Assembly: GCA_024226255.1 (NCBI GenBank)
Contig: JAAELU010000748.1
Span: 1-53,019 of the forward strand
DNA from: a bacterium
Lineage (GTDB): Bacteria > Actinomycetota > Acidimicrobiia > Spongiisociales > UBA5794
Direction of reading: 5' to 3'
DNA length: 53,019 nt
Shown: piece by piece, positions 11,338-53,019 of the stretch
How the letters are laid out: every line of letters begins with the position of its first letter
Numbering within the stretch: position 1 is the stretch's first letter
Translations under genes and position numbers: made by a program
Notes under the pieces: generated by a model
The model's database searches: none
The model's input: the letters and a program-made list of their open reading frames with translations, nothing else
What the model was told of the DNA's origin: nothing

Positions 11338-12609
<1,272 letters not shown>

Positions 12610-12614
12610 AGCCC

Positions 12615-12650
12615 AGATGTGAGATGTGAGATGTCAGATGTGAGACATCC
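12615..12650 (+). repeat. GATGTGA short tandem repeat
   Basis: GATGTGAGATGTGAGATGTC followed by AGATGTGAGACATC, directly after clpX. The repeat supplies both candidate starts of the next ORF (GTG 12619, ATG 12631), so the first residues of that ORF are repeat-derived. It is a third flavour of short intergenic repeat in this window, beside the CAGAAGTCAG and GTATCACG types. Confidence 0.5.
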
Positions 12651-12966
12651 GGCGTTCGGGTTCGTTGTTCGATGGGCGTCGTTCGCCATCCTGCTATTCG
12701 TGCTTGTCACGTGGCTTTGGATCGACGTCACAACGGATTGCCTCATCAACACTCGTGATTACGCGGGCTGCCCTCGACACCTCCCAGCGCCACTGCGCGT
12801 GTTCTTTCCGTACGGATTCGTGATCGTGGTGCTCTTGGGGGCGCTGGCTGCGCGATCGAGGTTGGCCACGGCCGTGCTGATGGCGGGGATTCTCGTCGTT
12901 GTACTCTCCGTCCTCGGTGGCCTGGAGTGGTGGTTAACGGGGGACTTTCTGCTGGGCTACCTCTAG
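12631..12966 (+). CDS. Small hypothetical membrane protein, three TM segments
   Basis: 111 aa from ATG 12631; the track start GTG 12619 adds MRCE. The family is not recognised. Three hydrophobic stretches are visible: about 10-30 (FAILLFVLVTWLWIDV), about 58-77 (YGFVIVVLLGALAA) and about 83-105 (AVLMAGILVVVLSVLGGLEWW). Two cysteines lie between TM1 and TM2. No Shine-Dalgarno is evident and the start lies in a repeat, so the translation start is doubtful. The hydrophobic pattern and the hairpin directly after the stop argue for a real gene. Confidence 0.45.
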   Translation: MSDVRHPAFGFVVRWASFAILLFVLVTWLWIDVTTDCLINTRDYAGCPRHLPAPLRVFFPYGFVIVVLLGALAARSRLATAVLMAGILVVVLSVLGGLEWWLTGDFLLGYL

Positions 12967-12989: not shown

Positions 12990-13430
12990 AGCGCGTCCAT
13001 GACAACGGCCGGCAGCCAAACGTCCCGAGTAGCGGAGGAACGAGAAAAACATTGCCGCGCGGAGTAAGGCGCGGATTCACGGTTTACGTGCAGTTGTGAT
13101 GCGCCGCCGCTGACCAATGTGCGTTTGGATGTTCACCACCGCGTCTTGCGCTGATCTCGCGTCTCCGCGGCCCCCTCCGAGGCTCGTTCCTCGCCTCACC
13201 TCCCCCAAGAATTGCCCGCCGAGGACGGCGTGCAACGGGGGAGGAAACTGACGTGCTGCCTTTGAGGTTCAGTTATGGGACCGTGCGCTCGCCAGAGGGC
13301 GGGGTTCAGGCTGCATCGCGCAGTCGCCCCTCGGCATCGGTGCATCGTGCCGTCACTGCCGCGTTATCAGGAGGCCGCACAGTCACCGCCGCGTCTTCAG
13401 GGGCGCCGAGCCGTCACCGTTGGTGTTGTC
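12990..13430. repeat. Left repeat array flanking the flotillin block
   Basis: No supported gene in about 440 bp. Reading on the minus strand away from the flotillin stop there are three components. First, four copies of a GGTGACTGTGCG-like motif spaced 29-31 bp (13311-13420). Second, a hairpin with CCTCCCCC/GGGGGAGG ends (13199-13244), followed by GGCGAGGAACGAG and a G-rich run (to 13167). Third, the 16-mer CTCGGGACGTTTGGCT (13014-13029). The same three components occur in the same outward order on the plus strand to the right of the amidohydrolase. Confidence 0.6.
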
Positions 13431-17042: not shown

Positions 17043-17060
17043 GGAAGAAGAATAAGGCCC

Positions 17061-17098
17061 CAGAAGCCAGAAATCAGAAGTCAGAAATCAGAAGTCAG
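17061..17098. repeat. CAGAAGTCAGAAATCAG tandem repeat
   Basis: Five imperfect copies of the 8-10 bp unit CAGAAGT/AAT, 18 bp upstream of the amidohydrolase start. The same unit forms both arms of the hairpin after rodA (28440-28506). Function unknown; because of its position it could affect the amidohydrolase promoter. Confidence 0.55.
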
Positions 17099-17131
17099 CA
17101 ACGAAAGGGCCCGCTTCACCTCCGTCTCGGC

Positions 17132-17201
17132 GGCGACTGTGCGCTGCACTGATCACGCAAGGTGACTGTGCGATGTCTTGCAGCCGCGTGGTGACTGTGC
17201 G
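17132..17201 (+). repeat. 29-bp-period repeats of GGTGACTGTGCG
   Basis: GGCGACTGTGCG at 17132 and GGTGACTGTGCG at 17161 and 17190, spaced exactly 29 bp. The 17 bp between copies are not conserved. A mirror-image set of four looser copies lies beyond the flotillin stop (13311-13420). Only 12 bp are conserved per unit and no cas genes are present, so this is not CRISPR. Confidence 0.6.
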
Positions 17202-17275
17202 ATCACCGGTGCGTCGCCGCCCGCTTGTCAGAGCCCGTCGTACAAAGCGGAGAGCGGCGGCGCAAACGTTGTTCT

Positions 17276-17340
17276 CTCCCCCCGTCTGACTCCGCTTTGG
17301 GAGGCAGACGGGGGGAGTCGCCGAGGAACGAGGCGGAGGG
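17276..17340 (+). repeat. Perfect 13-bp-stem hairpin plus GAGGAACGAG motif
   Basis: CTCCCCCCGTCTG (17276-17288) and CAGACGGGGGGAG (17305-17317) form a perfect 13-bp stem with a 16-nt loop. GCCGAGGAACGAG and a G-rich run follow. The same hairpin-then-GAGGAACGAG order is found, inverted, at 13167-13244. Between 17042 and 18261 I see no supportable gene. Confidence 0.6.
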
Positions 17341-17410
17341 GGGAAGCGAAGGCAGTAGACAAAGAGAACGTTGCGTCCTGGTACCAAGTGGCCGCGAGCC
17401 GAGAGCCCGC

Positions 17411-17542
17411 GGCGGTTGGGTGTCCGCCTACCCGTGTTGCGGTTTGCTGGGTCCCTCCGCGACACCCTCCGTTCCCGGCCCAGAGCGGCCGGGCCACCTC
17501 CCCCAAACGTTGCCCGCCGAGGACAGCGTGCAACGGGGGAGG
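17411..17542 (+). repeat. Dispersed structured repeat, copy 1
   Basis: About 105 bp (17411-17519) align at roughly 80% (by eye) with the reverse complement of the right edge of the window (52913-53019), sharing GCTGGGTCCCTCCGC and CCACCTCCCCCAAACGT. Two hairpins lie inside: CCCGGCC/GGCCGGG (17474-17493), and a CTCCCC...CGTTGC/GCAACG...GGGGAG stem (17497-17542). Both stems are kept in the other copy with different, compensating bases. The second hairpin alone also occurs at 13199-13244. Confidence 0.65.
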
Positions 17543-17600
17543 AGACACATTCGCAACCTCCTCACTCCTCACTCCTCCTCCTCCACTCCTCTGACCAGGT

Positions 17601-18260
17601 AACTAGTCACCGTGACACACCAACGTATGTGCCTGTACTGGGGCATCTATGTACCTGATACTCGTCATGTCAGCGCAACTCTCTCCTGTGTTGACAGGCC
17701 GCAGGCTTTTGCGGGCCAAGTCCGGTTCGGGCAAGCAGGGGGAACTGGGGTGAGCATCCCCGGGGGCAGCGCTCCCGGGGGGCACATCTTTCGATGAGAG
17801 GTCTGGGAAGGCACAAGTTCGGGTGAGCGGTGGGGGCAAGTACCGCTCACCAGGGGGAAAGAGAGACCCGGGGTCCGTCCCGGGTCTTCTCGCGTCTCCG
17901 GTGCGTCGCGGTGGCCCGTCGGGCGGTTGGGCGCTGCGTCTCTCCGGCCAGCGGCGTCCCTGGCGTCTGCTCGGGACGTTTGGCTTTCTGCTTATGGCGA
18001 CCACGTTTGGGGGAGGGCCTCACCCAAACCCCTCGTCCTTCGCCTCGACGCATCTGCCGATGCTGCTCGGGACGTTTGGCTATCGGCGTGGATTCGGGTC
18101 GCGTTCTGGGGGCCTCACCCAAACCCCCCGCGGCCTTCGTTGTGCGTCCTACCCAGGAACACCGCTGACTCGGAGATGCGCGACCGCCACCAGTCCGACG
18201 GACCACTACAATCACGCCACCGAAGGCGGAGTTCCGCCGAGGCGAAAGGTCGCGAGATGA
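17601..18260 (+). other. Long hairpin-rich leader upstream of valS
   Basis: About 660 bp without a supportable gene. Three strong hairpins follow one another: CCCCGGGGGC-AGC-GCTCCCGGGG (17758-17780), GGTGAGCGGT-10 nt-ACCGCTCACC (17822-17851) and AGACCCGGG-6 nt-CCCGGGTCT (17864-17887, terminator-like). Then comes an imperfect direct duplication (17967-18032 and 18063-18127), both copies starting CTGCTCGGGACGTTTGGCT and ending GGCCTCACCCAAACCCC. A TTGACA lies at 17693. It could be an attenuator for valS or a separate RNA. I could not match it to a T-box or a known riboswitch. Confidence 0.4.
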
Positions 18261-20879
18261 GTGGTCACGATGAAGCCAACGTACGAACCGCACGACATCG
18301 AAGCGCGCTGGTATCCGATCTGGGAAGAATCCGGATCCTTTCGACCTGAACTGAACCCCGATGGTGATCCATTCACCATCTCCATTCCTCCTCCAAATGT
18401 CACCGGCGTTCTTCACATGGGCCACGCTCTCGACGGTTCGATTCAGGACGCCATCATTCGTCGCAAGCGGATGCAGGGCTACCAGGCGCTGTGGCTGCCA
18501 GGGATGGACCACGCCGGGATCGCCACGCAGAACGTCGTCGAACGTGAGCTCGCCAAAGAGGGGATGACCCGTCACGACCTGGGCCGCGAGAAGTTCATCG
18601 AGCAGGTTTGGGCCTGGAAGGCTACGTCCGGGGGCACAATCACCAAGCAGATGCGGGCCATGGGGTTCTCATGCGACTGGTCGCGGGAGCGCTTCACCCT
18701 CGATGAAGGTCTGTCTGCTGCGGTCCGCGAAGTGTTCGTCACACTCTATGAAGAGGGCTTGATCTACCGGGGCAATCGCATCATCAATTGGTGTCCCCGC
18801 TGCCACACGGCCATCTCCGATATCGAGGTGGAGTATCAGGACGAAACCGGCACCCTGACGCACATTCGTTATCCCTTCAGTGACGGCGACGGCGACGGCT
18901 ACGTCGAGGTGGCCACAACCCGTCCAGAGACCATGCTCGGCGATACCGCAGTCGCAGTCCATCCCGACGACCCGAGGTACGCCGGCGCCATCGGGCGCAC
19001 CGTCCGCCTGCCGCTCATGGACCGTGACATCCCCATCGTTGCCGATGATGCCGTCGAGATGGAGTTCGGCACCGGTGCAGTCAAGGTGACCCCGGCTCAC
19101 GACCCCCTCGACTTCGAGATCGGCTTGCGTCACGACCTTGAACCGATCCGGGTCATCGATACCGAAGCCAACATCACACCTGCCGGCGGCCGCTTTGCCG
19201 GTATGGATCGGTTCGACGCCCGGGCCGCCGTTGTCGAAGCCCTTGGTGAGCTCGGAGTGCTCGGCGAAATCGAGGACCATCACCACTCGGTCGGGCACTG
19301 TTCGCGCTGCAAGACCGTCATCGAGCCGATGCTCTCATTGCAGTGGTTCGTAAAAGTGCAACCTTTGGTGACGCCCGCGATTGCGGCGGTCAAAGATGGC
19401 CACAGCCGCTTTGTCCCCAAACGGTGGGAGAACAGCTACTTCCCTTGGATGGAGAACCTGCGGGATTGGACGATCAGCCGCCAGCTCTGGTGGGGACACC
19501 GGATCCCGGCTTGGTATTGCAACGACTGCGACAAAGTCATCGTCACCAGAGAGGATCCGGTCGACTGTCCCGATTGTCACGGCACGGTCTACGAGGATGA
19601 GGACGTGCTCGACACTTGGTTCTCTTCGGCACTGTGGCCGTTCTCGACGCTTGGCTGGCCCGAGCAAACCGAAGACCTAGCAACCTTCTACCCGACGAGC
19701 GTGTTGGTCACCGGCTACGACATCATCTACTTCTGGGTGGCGCGGATGCTCAAGATGGGCATCCACTTCACCGGCAAGGCACCGTTTGCCGATATCGCTA
19801 TCCACGGCATGGTTCGTGCCGAGGACGGCCGCAAGATGTCGAAGAGCCTGGGCAACTCGGTCGATCCGCTCGAGCTGGTCGACGAATACGGGGCCGATCC
19901 GTTGCGCCTGTCCCTGCTGCAAGCCGCTGCCCAGGGTGAGGATGTGCCCTTCAGCGAGGAATGGGTCGACGCGGCGCGTCGTTTCGGCAACAAGCTGTGG
20001 AATGCACTGCGTTTCGCAGTCGAACACGTTGGCATCAGCGACGTGCCGGCGAGCGAAGGCTACCCGGCCGATCCGCCGCCGCCGGAGCAGTGGATCCTGT
20101 CACGGCTCCACACCGTGACGGCCGAGTACGACGCCCTCCTCGATGAGTACAAGTTCTCCGACGCGGTAGCGCTCATCTACAACTTTGCTTGGTCTGAGGT
20201 CTTCGATTGGTACCTCGAGATGGCCAAGACGCCGCTCAAGGACGAGTCGCGCTCCGAGGTCACCAAGCAGACGCTTGGCGTCGTCCTGCGCGATCTCCTC
20301 AAATTGCTCCACCCCCTGATGCCGTCGGTGACCGAAGAGCTCTGGTCAGAGCTCGTTGGCGATGGCCTGCTCATCGCCGCCGCATGGCCGCAACCGCCGG
20401 CCCACGAGGTCCCGGCGGGCGTCGGCGACCTCCAAGAGCTGATTATCGGCCTGCGTCGTTTCCGGGCCGAGCACAACCTCGGCGCTAGGAAGCTGGCGCT
20501 GGAGGTCGACCATTCGGGCGGTACTAGTGCCGAGTGGTGGATGGAACAGCTCAGCGCGCTCGGCCGCGTCGACGCGACCGTAACTCGGGCAAGCATCGAC
20601 ACAAAAGCTCAAATCGGCCGTGCCCACATCTCCGCGGGAGACATCCATGCCTACATCCCGCTTGAAGGTGTCATCGACCCTGAGGCCGAGTGCCCCCGTC
20701 TCCGCAAAGCGATCGCGGAAGCTGAGGGCATGCTCAAGGCAACTGAGGGCAAACTCGCCAACAGCAACTTTGTGGAGCGGGCCCCCGACGAGGTCGTCGC
20801 CAAGGAGCGCGCCAAGGCGGCCGAATTCACGGCGACACTGGAGCGCTTGCAGGGGCAGCTCACCGAGTTGGGCTGCTGA
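18261..20879 (+). CDS. valS: Valyl-tRNA synthetase
   Basis: 872 aa class I synthetase that charges tRNA-Val. HMGH (52-55, the HIGH signature) lies in PPPNVTGVLHMGHALD and KMSKS at 525-529. The CP1 editing domain (about 190-330) includes TTRPETMLGDTAVAV and the catalytic domain contains DVLDTWFSSALWP. The anticodon-binding domain and the C-terminal coiled coil (about 805-870) are complete. The start is GTG 18261 with AAAGG 11 bp upstream; ATG 18270 is an alternative. folC follows after 3 bp, as in other actinobacteria. Confidence 0.97.
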   Translation: MVTMKPTYEPHDIEARWYPIWEESGSFRPELNPDGDPFTISIPPPNVTGVLHMGHALDGSIQDAIIRRKRMQGYQALWLPGMDHAGIATQNVVERELAKEGMTRHDLGREKFIEQVWAWKATSGGTITKQMRAMGFSCDWSRERFTLDEGLSAAVREVFVTLYEEGLIYRGNRIINWCPRCHTAISDIEVEYQDETGTLTHIRYPFSDGDGDGYVEVATTRPETMLGDTAVAVHPDDPRYAGAIGRTVRLPLMDRDIPIVADDAVEMEFGTGAVKVTPAHDPLDFEIGLRHDLEPIRVIDTEANITPAGGRFAGMDRFDARAAVVEALGELGVLGEIEDHHHSVGHCSRCKTVIEPMLSLQWFVKVQPLVTPAIAAVKDGHSRFVPKRWENSYFPWMENLRDWTISRQLWWGHRIPAWYCNDCDKVIVTREDPVDCPDCHGTVYEDEDVLDTWFSSALWPFSTLGWPEQTEDLATFYPTSVLVTGYDIIYFWVARMLKMGIHFTGKAPFADIAIHGMVRAEDGRKMSKSLGNSVDPLELVDEYGADPLRLSLLQAAAQGEDVPFSEEWVDAARRFGNKLWNALRFAVEHVGISDVPASEGYPADPPPPEQWILSRLHTVTAEYDALLDEYKFSDAVALIYNFAWSEVFDWYLEMAKTPLKDESRSEVTKQTLGVVLRDLLKLLHPLMPSVTEELWSELVGDGLLIAAAWPQPPAHEVPAGVGDLQELIIGLRRFRAEHNLGARKLALEVDHSGGTSAEWWMEQLSALGRVDATVTRASIDTKAQIGRAHISAGDIHAYIPLEGVIDPEAECPRLRKAIAEAEGMLKATEGKLANSNFVERAPDEVVAKERAKAAEFTATLERLQGQLTELGC

Positions 20880-22674: not shown

Positions 22675-22683
22675 GAAGGCTCT

Positions 22684-22743
22684 GTAGCCCGTATCACGTA
22701 TCACGTAGCACGAGAATCAGTCGTGATACGTGATACGGGCTAC
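22684..22743. terminator. Perfect 22-bp inverted repeat after ndk (GTATCACG type)
   Basis: Arms 22684-22705 (GTAGCCCGTATCACGTATCA...) and 22722-22743 are exact reverse complements over 22 bp, with a 16-nt spacer. Each arm is itself built from tandem GTATCAC units, and another GTGATAC follows. It starts 9 bp after the ndk stop. No T-tract follows. Terminator or processing hairpin made from a repeat. Confidence 0.65.
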
Positions 22744-22828
22744 GTGATACCCAACTTTCCTTTGGTGCCTAGCAACCGCGGATGTCTACACTTACGAATT
22801 CGCGAACTCGACCTCTAGAGGGTTTCTG

Positions 22829-27278: not shown

Positions 27279-28432
27279 TGGCGCTCACTGCCCGCCGCAC
27301 CGAGCCGGTCACAATCCTGCAGAGAGAGCGGGCTCTGCGGCCCGACATGTTTCTGATACTGCCCTACCTGGCGCTTGCCGCGCTGGGAATCGTCATGGTG
27401 TACACCGCGTCGGCGCCCCGCAACGAGCTGCTCGGCCTCGATCCGGCATCAACCGTGCGTCGCCACATCGTTTTTGTCCTCATCGGTTTTGCGGTCTTCA
27501 TAGCGTCGTCGCTCATCGGCGGGCGCACATTGCGCAGTCTCTCGATCCCTTTCTATATGGGATCTCTGCTGGCATTGGGGATCGTGTTGAGGTGGGGTCG
27601 CGAGCTCAAGGGCGCCCAGCGGTGGATCCAGATCGGTCCCCTCCAATTACAGCCGTCGGAGTTCGCCAAAGTTGCTGTGATCCTCGCTCTGGCCGTATTG
27701 CTGGCCAACGCCGGCAATACTCTGCGCTGGTTCCACATTGGTCGCGCCGTCTTGCTGGTCGGGGCGCCCGCCATCCTGATCTTCCTGCAGCCCGACCTCG
27801 GAACGATGTTGGTCTTTGCATTCGCCTCGGTGGTGATGATGTTTGTCGCCGGCACCACCCTGCGTCAGCTGGCGTTCATTGGCCTCGCCGCTGTGGTGAT
27901 GGCGGTGGCCCTGTTTCAGGTTGGGGCGATCGAGGAGTATCAGATCGCCCGGGTTACGTCCTTTCTCGACGGAGCCGGAGACGAGGAGGACGCTGACTAC
28001 AACCAGCGGCAATCAGAGATTGCGATCGGGTCGGGCGGATTCTTTGGCAAGGGTCTTTTTGGCGGGACCCAGACCAACCTGTCGTTCGTACCAGAGCAGA
28101 GTTCCGACTTCATCTTCACGGCGGTGGGGGAGCAACTTGGCTTTGTCGGCGGCTCCATCGTTCTGGGCCTCTACGTGATGATCGTGTGGCGACTACTCGT
28201 GGCCGCCATCAACGGTCGAGAACGCTTCTCGCAACTGGTCGCGATCGGAATCGCCTCGCTGCTGGTTTTTCACGTCTTCGTCAACGTGGGAATGACCTTG
28301 CGGCTGCTGCCCGTCACCGGGCTTCCGTTGCCCTTCCTCAGCGCCGGGGGCACATTCTTCATCGCCATGAGCCTGGCGCTCGGCTTGGCCCACAGCGTGT
28401 GGATGCGGCGATCGCCGGTTCCGGACGAATAA
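27278..28432 (+). CDS. rodA: SEDS glycosyltransferase RodA
   Basis: 384 aa polytopic protein with about ten TM segments. SEDS-family motifs are QPSEFAKVAVILALAVLLAN (about 125-144), FLQPDLGTMLVFAF (about 167-180), QSEIAIGSGGFFGKGLFGGTQ (about 243-263) with FVPEQSSDFIFTAVGEQLGF after it, and GLPLPFLSAGGT near the end. It polymerises glycan strands for rod growth with PBP2. Translation overlaps mrdA. A large repeat-derived hairpin follows the stop. Confidence 0.96.
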   Translation: MALTARRTEPVTILQRERALRPDMFLILPYLALAALGIVMVYTASAPRNELLGLDPASTVRRHIVFVLIGFAVFIASSLIGGRTLRSLSIPFYMGSLLALGIVLRWGRELKGAQRWIQIGPLQLQPSEFAKVAVILALAVLLANAGNTLRWFHIGRAVLLVGAPAILIFLQPDLGTMLVFAFASVVMMFVAGTTLRQLAFIGLAAVVMAVALFQVGAIEEYQIARVTSFLDGAGDEEDADYNQRQSEIAIGSGGFFGKGLFGGTQTNLSFVPEQSSDFIFTAVGEQLGFVGGSIVLGLYVMIVWRLLVAAINGRERFSQLVAIGIASLLVFHVFVNVGMTLRLLPVTGLPLPFLSAGGTFFIAMSLALGLAHSVWMRRSPVPDE

Positions 28433-28439
28433 GAGGAAG

Positions 28440-28506
28440 GAAGTCAGAAGCCAGACGTCAGAAGTCAGATAGGGGTTCTGACTTCTGACGTCTGATTTCT
28501 GACTTC
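28440..28506. terminator. 30-bp inverted repeat after rodA (CAGAAGTCAG type)
   Basis: Arms 28440-28469 and 28477-28506 pair over 30 bp with two mismatches around a 7-nt loop (TAGGGGT). Each arm is made of GAAGTCAGA-like tandem units, the same unit as at 17061-17098. It lies 8 bp after the rodA stop, so it is a probable transcription end point, although no T-tract follows. Confidence 0.65.
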
Positions 28507-28549
28507 CCGGCCACGGCTCGACAGAAACTCCCTCTGCTATGTTGCTCCT

Positions 28550-36482: not shown

Positions 36483-36582
36483 CTCAGATTTCACTACTTT
36501 TGTCGCCCCATTTCTACTATTTGATCAGCAACAGGGTGAATTAGCTTGCGGATGGTTCGATTCCCGTGCTATCAATAGCAGC
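36483..36582 (+). promoter_or_regulatory. Promoter module, copy 1 (before the aminotransferase)
   Basis: CTCAGATTTCACTACTTTTG at 36483-36502 (shared block runs to 36504), 41 bp, then -35 TTGCGG (36546-36551), 18 bp, -10 TATCAA (36570-36575). The same blocks with the same 41- and 18-bp spacings recur at 40615-40707. The leader would be about 43 nt before ATG 36625. The conserved upstream block is a candidate operator for the adjacent AsnC-type regulator. Confidence 0.65.
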
Positions 36583-40614: not shown

Positions 40615-40715
40615 CTCAGATTTCGCTACTTTTGTCCCCTCTCAGTTGCCGATTGGGCAAAAAAGTCTGACTTTCGCTTGCGGATGGCTCGATTCACCTG
40701 CTATCAATACCCCAT
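40615..40715 (+). promoter_or_regulatory. Promoter module, copy 2 (before the aldehyde dehydrogenase and pot operon)
   Basis: CTCAGATTTCGCTACTTTTG at 40615-40634 (shared block runs to 40636), 41 bp, -35 TTGCGG (40678-40683), 18 bp, -10 TATCAA (40702-40707). Only a few bases differ from copy 1 inside the blocks, while the 41-bp stretch between them has diverged. It lies in the 380-bp gap before the aldehyde dehydrogenase; the leader would be about 220 nt. Nothing else in the gap is recognisable. Confidence 0.65.
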
Positions 40716-52890: not shown

Positions 52891-53019
52891 TCTCCTTCTC
52901 CGTCGAACGACGAAGTCGGGCGACGTTTGGGGGAGGTGGGCTGCCCTGCGGGCAGCTTGGGAGGGGGTTGCGGAGGGACCCAGCAGACCGCAGCAAGCTG
53001 CAGCGGACATCCAACCGCC
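52891..53019 (-). repeat. Dispersed structured repeat, copy 2 (cut by the window edge)
   Basis: The reverse complement aligns with 17411-17542. Shared blocks are GGCGGTTGG, TGCTGGGTCCCTCCGC and CCACCTCCCCCAAACGT. Hairpin 1 is GCTGCCC-TGC-GGGCAGC (52940-52956), at the position of CCCGGCC/GGCCGGG in copy 1. Hairpin 2 has CGTCG/CGACG (52901-52905, 52921-52925) where copy 1 has CGTTGC/GCAACG. The stems therefore differ in sequence but not in pairing. The element continues past the window. Confidence 0.65.

Follow-up and report, generated by a model that had tools for sequence, protein, structure and literature searches.

RAYT transposases account for many of the REP-like repeats of bacteria. The MITEs of bacteria, among them ERIC/RU-1 and Correia, are intergenic, 100 to 300 bp long, bounded by imperfect terminal inverted repeats and without an open reading frame; pneumococcal BOX elements are modular intergenic repeats of interchangeable structured blocks; and the attC site of integrons is an imperfect hairpin with unpaired bases on one side. 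In the account of Di Nocera and colleagues, REPs are hairpins of 20 to 40 bp tagged GTAG or CGTC, often arranged as head-to-head dimers and situated between convergent or co-directional genes, and the CGTC type is described there as having no transposase (PMC3733652). Long REP hairpins with a bulge appear in a study of Y1 enzymes (PMC6006769), IS elements are reported to target REPs (PMC1525189), the size of RU-1 is also given in PMC2759123, and RepRanger lists one Acidimicrobium by candidate counts (PMC12306157).

Here, we describe a real, fold-conserved repeat of the Acidimicrobiia with established copy number, architecture, covariation, intergenic placement, lineage-specific presence, and insertions of other hairpins and of one IS. 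It is probably a mobile palindromic DNA repeat, new and REP/REPIN/MITE-like, and in the literature found, which comprised open-licence papers only, it is undescribed. The source is contig JAAELU010000748.1 of assembly GCA_024226255.1 (lineage Acidimicrobiia; Spongiisociales; UBA5794; 4.99 Mb in 778 contigs, 90.7% complete), and the whole contig of 53,019 nt is called the window below. A sequence-only reading of the window had pointed to two inverted copies at 17411-17542 and 52891-53019, each with two hairpins, and to a third, partial copy at 13199-13244. Both main copies are present, and their stem letters at the two hairpins are as quoted: in the 5-Mb genome, BLAST aligned 52917-53019(-) to bases 1-106 of the query at 77% (E 4.5e-15), and 17411-17470 matches 52960-53019 in inverted orientation without gaps (82% over 60 bases). 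The third copy exists on the plus strand but is not partial, being a whole A arm. This first description covered the right (A) arm alone and overlooked an inverted B arm to its left, with which it forms a composite of about 275 bp, in the order reverse-complement B arm, spacer and A arm (rcB-spacer-A). The features in the window are as follows.

17273..17547, plus strand: complete composite (rcB-spacer-A), from nhmmer arms and a 36-row composite alignment; BLAST 83% to the consensus
17273..17383, minus strand: B arm (nhmmer E 1.5e-17)
17276..17317, minus strand: outer hairpin of the B arm, here a perfect palindrome that has lost the usual CAA bulge
17320..17334, no strand assigned: inner hairpin of the B arm, GCCGAGGAACGAGGC module
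17384..17420, plus strand: spacer between the arms
17421..17547, plus strand: A arm, the repeat originally reported (nhmmer E 1.6e-23)
17474..17493, plus strand: inner hairpin of the A arm (hairpin 1), CCGGCC module type
17497..17542, plus strand: outer (terminal) hairpin of the A arm, which contains hairpin 2; covarying stems and a one-sided CAA bulge
17128..17272, plus strand: left extension common to some copies, with GGTGACTGTGCG repeats and a further hairpin block
13130..13248, plus strand: A arm without a recognisable B partner (nhmmer E 3.7e-17)
52891..53019, minus strand: A arm truncated by the contig end within the element (nhmmer 52891-53009, E 1.1e-18)

In the source genome, 49 BLAST matches to a 137-base stretch were obtained (40 scored of 97 first-look candidates), and a 22-letter pattern allowing up to 3 mismatches occurred at 73 places, while its reversed control occurred at 5; the repeat is thus dispersed in high copy number and not a product of chance. 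An iterated nhmmer profile search (E < 0.001) over 62 stretches, 187 kb in all, around the matched places gave 130 arm hits, four of them in the window. Head-to-head arm pairs (n = 36), all set by hand in the orientation rcB-spacer-A, have this single fixed arrangement, with a spacer of about 40 bases in most. A match to at least one other flank of the same side was found for 24 left and 9 right flanks, each out of at most 36. The GGTGACTGTGCG repeats are common to many left flanks of the element and recur about every 29 bases; in the window they were seen at 17132-17201 and 13376-13387. Several copies come to within a few bases of the end of their contig. Several contigs, including the window itself, end inside a copy, and copies at contig ends may explain assembly breaks.

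The terminal hairpin consists of a 7-bp outer stem, a 4-base bulge on the 5' side, a 6-bp middle stem, a C.T mismatch and a 4-bp tip stem. Of the 130 arm hits, 102 were retained as distinct arms of full length, and 96 distinct 52-mers remained; L006:1380-1431, whose stem is deleted, was excluded from the alignment (A1). Relatives contributed 35 of 43 rows after eight ragged or displaced ones were dropped by eye, and the alignment used for counting holds 130 rows from four genomes, 95 of them from the source genome. RNAalifold on A1 shifted the register of a G run and returned a weaker structure, and the hand-drawn structure was used for all counts. Paired cells amounted to 93.0% in the 130 hairpins and 80.9% in shuffled alignments, a percentage that the choice of structure favours and that row selection may raise slightly. 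Cells changed on both sides numbered 313 (106 in shuffles) and the covariation score was 0.372 (0.150 in shuffles); none of 500 shuffles reached this count, score or percentage, and one reached the 11 of 17 pairs with change on both sides, contrasts that are inflated by kinship among copies. The number of further pair types was reached by 81 of 500 shuffles. Registers slid along the alignment were at most 58.7% paired and scored no more than 0.113. The outer stem also covaries between the arms (CCT/AGG in A, CTC/GAG in B). Compensatory pairing at hairpin 2, proposed from two copies, is therefore upheld in the larger alignment. Long-range pairing between the inner feet of the arms had no such signature by eye, their variable letters in the source-genome alignments showing no joint change.

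Covariation can also be produced by template switching without any recognition of the fold, and such switching is documented as repairing stems in one mutational step (PMC8794818). This raises the possibility that pairing is upheld mainly by replication template switching in quasi-palindromes and that the repeats are passive or dead. The compensatory changes at the middle triplet are whole triplets of nine perfectly complementary kinds (perfect pairing in 83 of 130 rows, not in 47), and in three copies, the B arm of the window at 17276-17317, C716 B and C182 A, the bulge has been removed exactly, leaving a perfect palindrome; because of these three copies, template switching probably contributes to the upkeep of the stems. 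However, 124 of 130 rows retain a CAA or CAG bulge and 114 of 130 a C.T mismatch, both of which unchecked template switching should have erased, and the terminal sequence and the identity of the A and B arms are conserved across genera. We therefore regard a mainly mutational origin as somewhat unlikely. A one-sided bulge and a mismatch kept to this extent are what recognition of a folded strand would require.

In contrast to hairpin 2, hairpin 1 did not bear out the claim of compensatory change. The two stems compared there belong to two common and different modules: among 59 A arms, the inner hairpin is of type GCTGCCC in 22, CCGGCC in 15, GCCTCGC in 11 and other types in 11, and B arms have mainly three further types. 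Since the main types do not grade into each other, the contrast at hairpin 1 is a swap of whole hairpins. The objection that the stems might be independent insertions thus holds in part for hairpin 1, as module swaps, but not for hairpin 2. A second hairpin family of 78 bp has 22 matches in the source genome, with copies in the window at 17967-18035 and 18058-18134; a reverse piece of it was noticed at 13008-13033. By reading of the flanks of 20 of these 22 matches, 6 were assigned to the loop of a terminal hairpin, 6 to the foot of an inner hairpin of the composite and 8 to sites elsewhere. Insertion of hairpin into hairpin suggests a route by which modules arise and hints at folded DNA as the substrate. 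It is tempting to speculate, as an unlikely extension of this idea, that mobile DNA hairpins form an ecosystem in which they enter one another's loops. The composite would then be built from separately mobile modules by a mechanism that depends on the fold and acts on single-stranded or cruciform DNA; an enzyme, or none dedicated to it, would drive this process, with the bulged terminal hairpin as the recognition signal.

Pairing could be kept in RNA or in DNA. An RNA-selected strand should favour G.U pairs. Stem mismatches in the 130 terminal hairpins comprised 74 G.T and 76 A.C (24 and 60 when the two pairs beside the bulge are left out), and neither arm showed a clear excess of G.T (G.T/A.C of 38/49 in A and 36/27 in B), whereas 40 tRNA genes from these loci, identified with software that is itself biased towards paired stems, gave 51 G.T and 3 A.C. 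At the Rfam gathering score the window contains three tRNAs alone, and 17043-18262 searched at E values up to 5 returned sub-threshold chance hits only. The orientation of the element relative to co-directional genes is mixed (2 same, 5 opposite). The near equality of G.T and A.C, the inverted arms within one unit, the occurrence in all gene orientations and the lack of an Rfam match make it more likely that stem pairing is kept at the DNA level, and an RNA-level fold is unsupported. On the same grounds a structured non-coding RNA made from the composite, acting in cis or in trans, appears decidedly unlikely, despite the strong covariation and an enrichment downstream of genes that would place it in 3' UTRs. 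Of the two options in the sequence-only reading, a REP-like repeat with preserved pairing, outside any Rfam family matched, is supported, and a functional structured RNA is not.

None of the 130 arms lies inside a gene predicted by our home-made gene calls. By the same calls, intergenic regions with the element (n = 35) comprise 16 convergent, 13 co-directional and 6 divergent ones, and regions without it (n = 38) 5, 25 and 8, respectively, so that convergent regions are enriched (16/35 versus 5/38; Fisher p 0.004). This bias, together with three orthologous sites occupied in both species compared (see below), would be expected if the host had domesticated the repeat as a bidirectional transcription terminator or a stabiliser of mRNA ends, after an old mobile element had spread it. 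However, divergent intergenic regions carry the element too, such as that of 17273-17547 upstream of valS, the hairpins have no T tracts, and selection against insertions into promoters gives the same convergent bias. We consider such domestication improbable.

Two genomes of the same genus have no element at the valS site of the window; their intergenic region is without the window bases from about 17055 to 17600. The copy at 13130 has no counterpart in relative G002, where blastn finds nothing in the corresponding gap, which holds other sequence. Four loci entered the orthologous comparison with G002, candidate pair C140/L116 being left out: C382/L118 and C698/L109 have composites in the same gap and the same orientation, C380/L114 has elements in the same gap and opposite orientation, and C470/L107 shows reciprocal empty sites, with the elements in different neighbouring gaps. 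This mixed occupancy fits mobility combined with hot spots or long keeping; with three of the four loci occupied in both species, two in the same orientation, it could also mean long vertical keeping with a function. No transposition event was seen, and none of 27 composites had a target-site duplication of at least 5 bp.

Several other features were observed. At 17721-17900, the leader preceding the valyl-tRNA synthetase gene (18261) shows conservation in those same-genus relatives that were compared. Before the gene, it carries a GC hairpin and a hairpin resembling a terminator, and a search at E up to 5 gave no convincing match in Rfam; the leader is a possible uncatalogued attenuator. An intergenic repeat with a 14-base period (GAAGTCAGAAATCAG-like) occurs at 12609-12651, 17056-17112 and 28426-28507 and is palindromic at 28439-28507, and a long intergenic palindrome with 39-nt arms, CGTATCACGTATCACG, spans 22675-22759. 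Two 37-base copies, 89% alike, lie 4.1 kb apart at 36541-36577 and 40673-40709. In relative G002, clpX (G002:C105:11681-12917) appears as two overlapping open frames, owing to a frameshift or an assembly error.

A covariance model of the terminal hairpin matched 8 of 138 genomes of the order at E 1e-4, and the source genome alone among a phylum sample of 396 genomes at E 1e-5, both searches using filters that lose weak matches. The eight carriers are the source, three genomes of the same genus, one of another genus of the family and three in two other families; in the carrier of the other genus, composites stand in tandem every 200 to 270 bases. Carriers within the genus share the rcB-spacer-A arrangement with those from other genera and families of the order. 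Among named records, the pattern occurs in the uncultured Acidimicrobiaceae MAGs CAMYIJ and CAMYJM, and also in JAHEJX. BLAST with the composite matched 12 of 60 relatives (source included), outside the genus mostly in the inner-hairpin region alone, and these matches were not counted. Viral contigs gave 0 matches to a narrow pattern, and plasmids gave no match. The repeat is confined to a few genera.

Like REPs, REPINs and BIMEs (GTAG and CGTC superfamilies, PMC3733652), the composite is a GC-rich intergenic palindrome in many copies, forms inverted head-to-head heterodimers around a spacer, of largely fixed length in the 36 composites, shows a convergent bias and is a target of IS elements. 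It differs from them in its length, its two hairpins per arm, the fixed asymmetry of A and B and its modular inner hairpins. Its dimeric hairpins, long bulged hairpins and convergent placement, all as in REPs (PMC3733652, PMC6006769), would suit a genuine REP of the GTAG type that a RAYT (Y1 HUH) transposase moves, and a GTAG does stand on the B side of the spacer, about 10 bases further from the hairpin foot, in many source-genome copies and in some relatives' copies, not in others. However, no unpaired GTAG or GTGG adjoins the foot of these terminal hairpins at a distance of 0-2 nt, the flanks there reading CAC and GAGAC. The domain PF01797 (Y1, including RAYTs), the IS200/IS605-type transposase suggested as a check, had 0 matches in the source genome, which is about 91% complete, in a search whose control responded in 5 of 14 genomes, and is absent from seven of the eight carriers, source included; the sole hit, in G012, has no hairpin beside the gene. 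A GTAG REP is therefore highly improbable. CGTC REPs, which also lack a transposase, have a stem of 8-9 bp, a loop of 4-5 nt and the CGTC tag, whereas the terminal hairpin has stems of 7, 6 and 4 bp with a bulge and a mismatch and no tag at its foot.

Other transposases were considered as mobilisers. A Y2 (IS91-type) enzyme was found as one open frame in the source genome (G000:C21:8-439), with no element adjoining, and not in the seven other carriers, a weak negative because the control responded in 0 of 14 genomes. IS110-type elements occur in six of the eight carriers. The one that adjoins an element (C215; L217 1101-2410, G000:C215) is itself an insertion in a B arm, whose outer hairpin it splits, paralleling REPs as IS targets (PMC1525189); a relative's IS110-type locus, L209, has a hairpin match nearby. 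Across the Y1, Y2 and IS110 loci read in G000, no arm flanks a transposase of these families except for the one IS110 element inserted into an arm.

With MITEs, the composite shares a size within 100-300 bp, and thus under about 500 bp, imperfect terminal inverted repeats (GTCTCTCCCCCCGT / ACGGGGGAGGAGAC), an intergenic location and the lack of an open reading frame, including one for a transposase. Unlike ERIC/RU-1 and Correia, it has internal covarying hairpins, and neither a target-site duplication nor, among the Y1, Y2 and IS110 loci read, a parent IS was detected. Its modular, interchangeable structured blocks liken it, by description, to BOX elements, and the terminal hairpin, imperfect and with unpaired bases on one side, recalls attC. 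An integron attC was rejected: no RYYYAAC/GTTRRRY core was recognised by eye, the hairpins form inverted pairs and no cassette array was seen.

On balance, we favour, with moderate confidence, a dispersed, non-coding and non-autonomous palindromic DNA element that is moved by recognition of its fold, an Acidimicrobiia counterpart of REPINs or small MITEs. Its unit is made of two diverged inverted arms, each combining a terminal hairpin that is bulged with an inner one that can be exchanged. The terminal hairpins may be recognised as folded DNA, either single-stranded or cruciform; an enzyme acting in trans, other than a detectable Y1/RAYT transposase, would copy or move the composite, which would then survive where it does least harm, between the 3' ends of genes. 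Against this mobile-element reading speak the failure of the searches to find a mobilising gene, the absence of duplications of at least 5 bp in the 27 composites and the lack of any observed transposition event.

An order of Actinomycetota thus keeps a larger, asymmetric and fold-conserved dimer across genera without a detectable RAYT, and other hairpins and an IS enter this composite at its hairpins. This makes testable what moves palindromic repeats when no RAYT is present.
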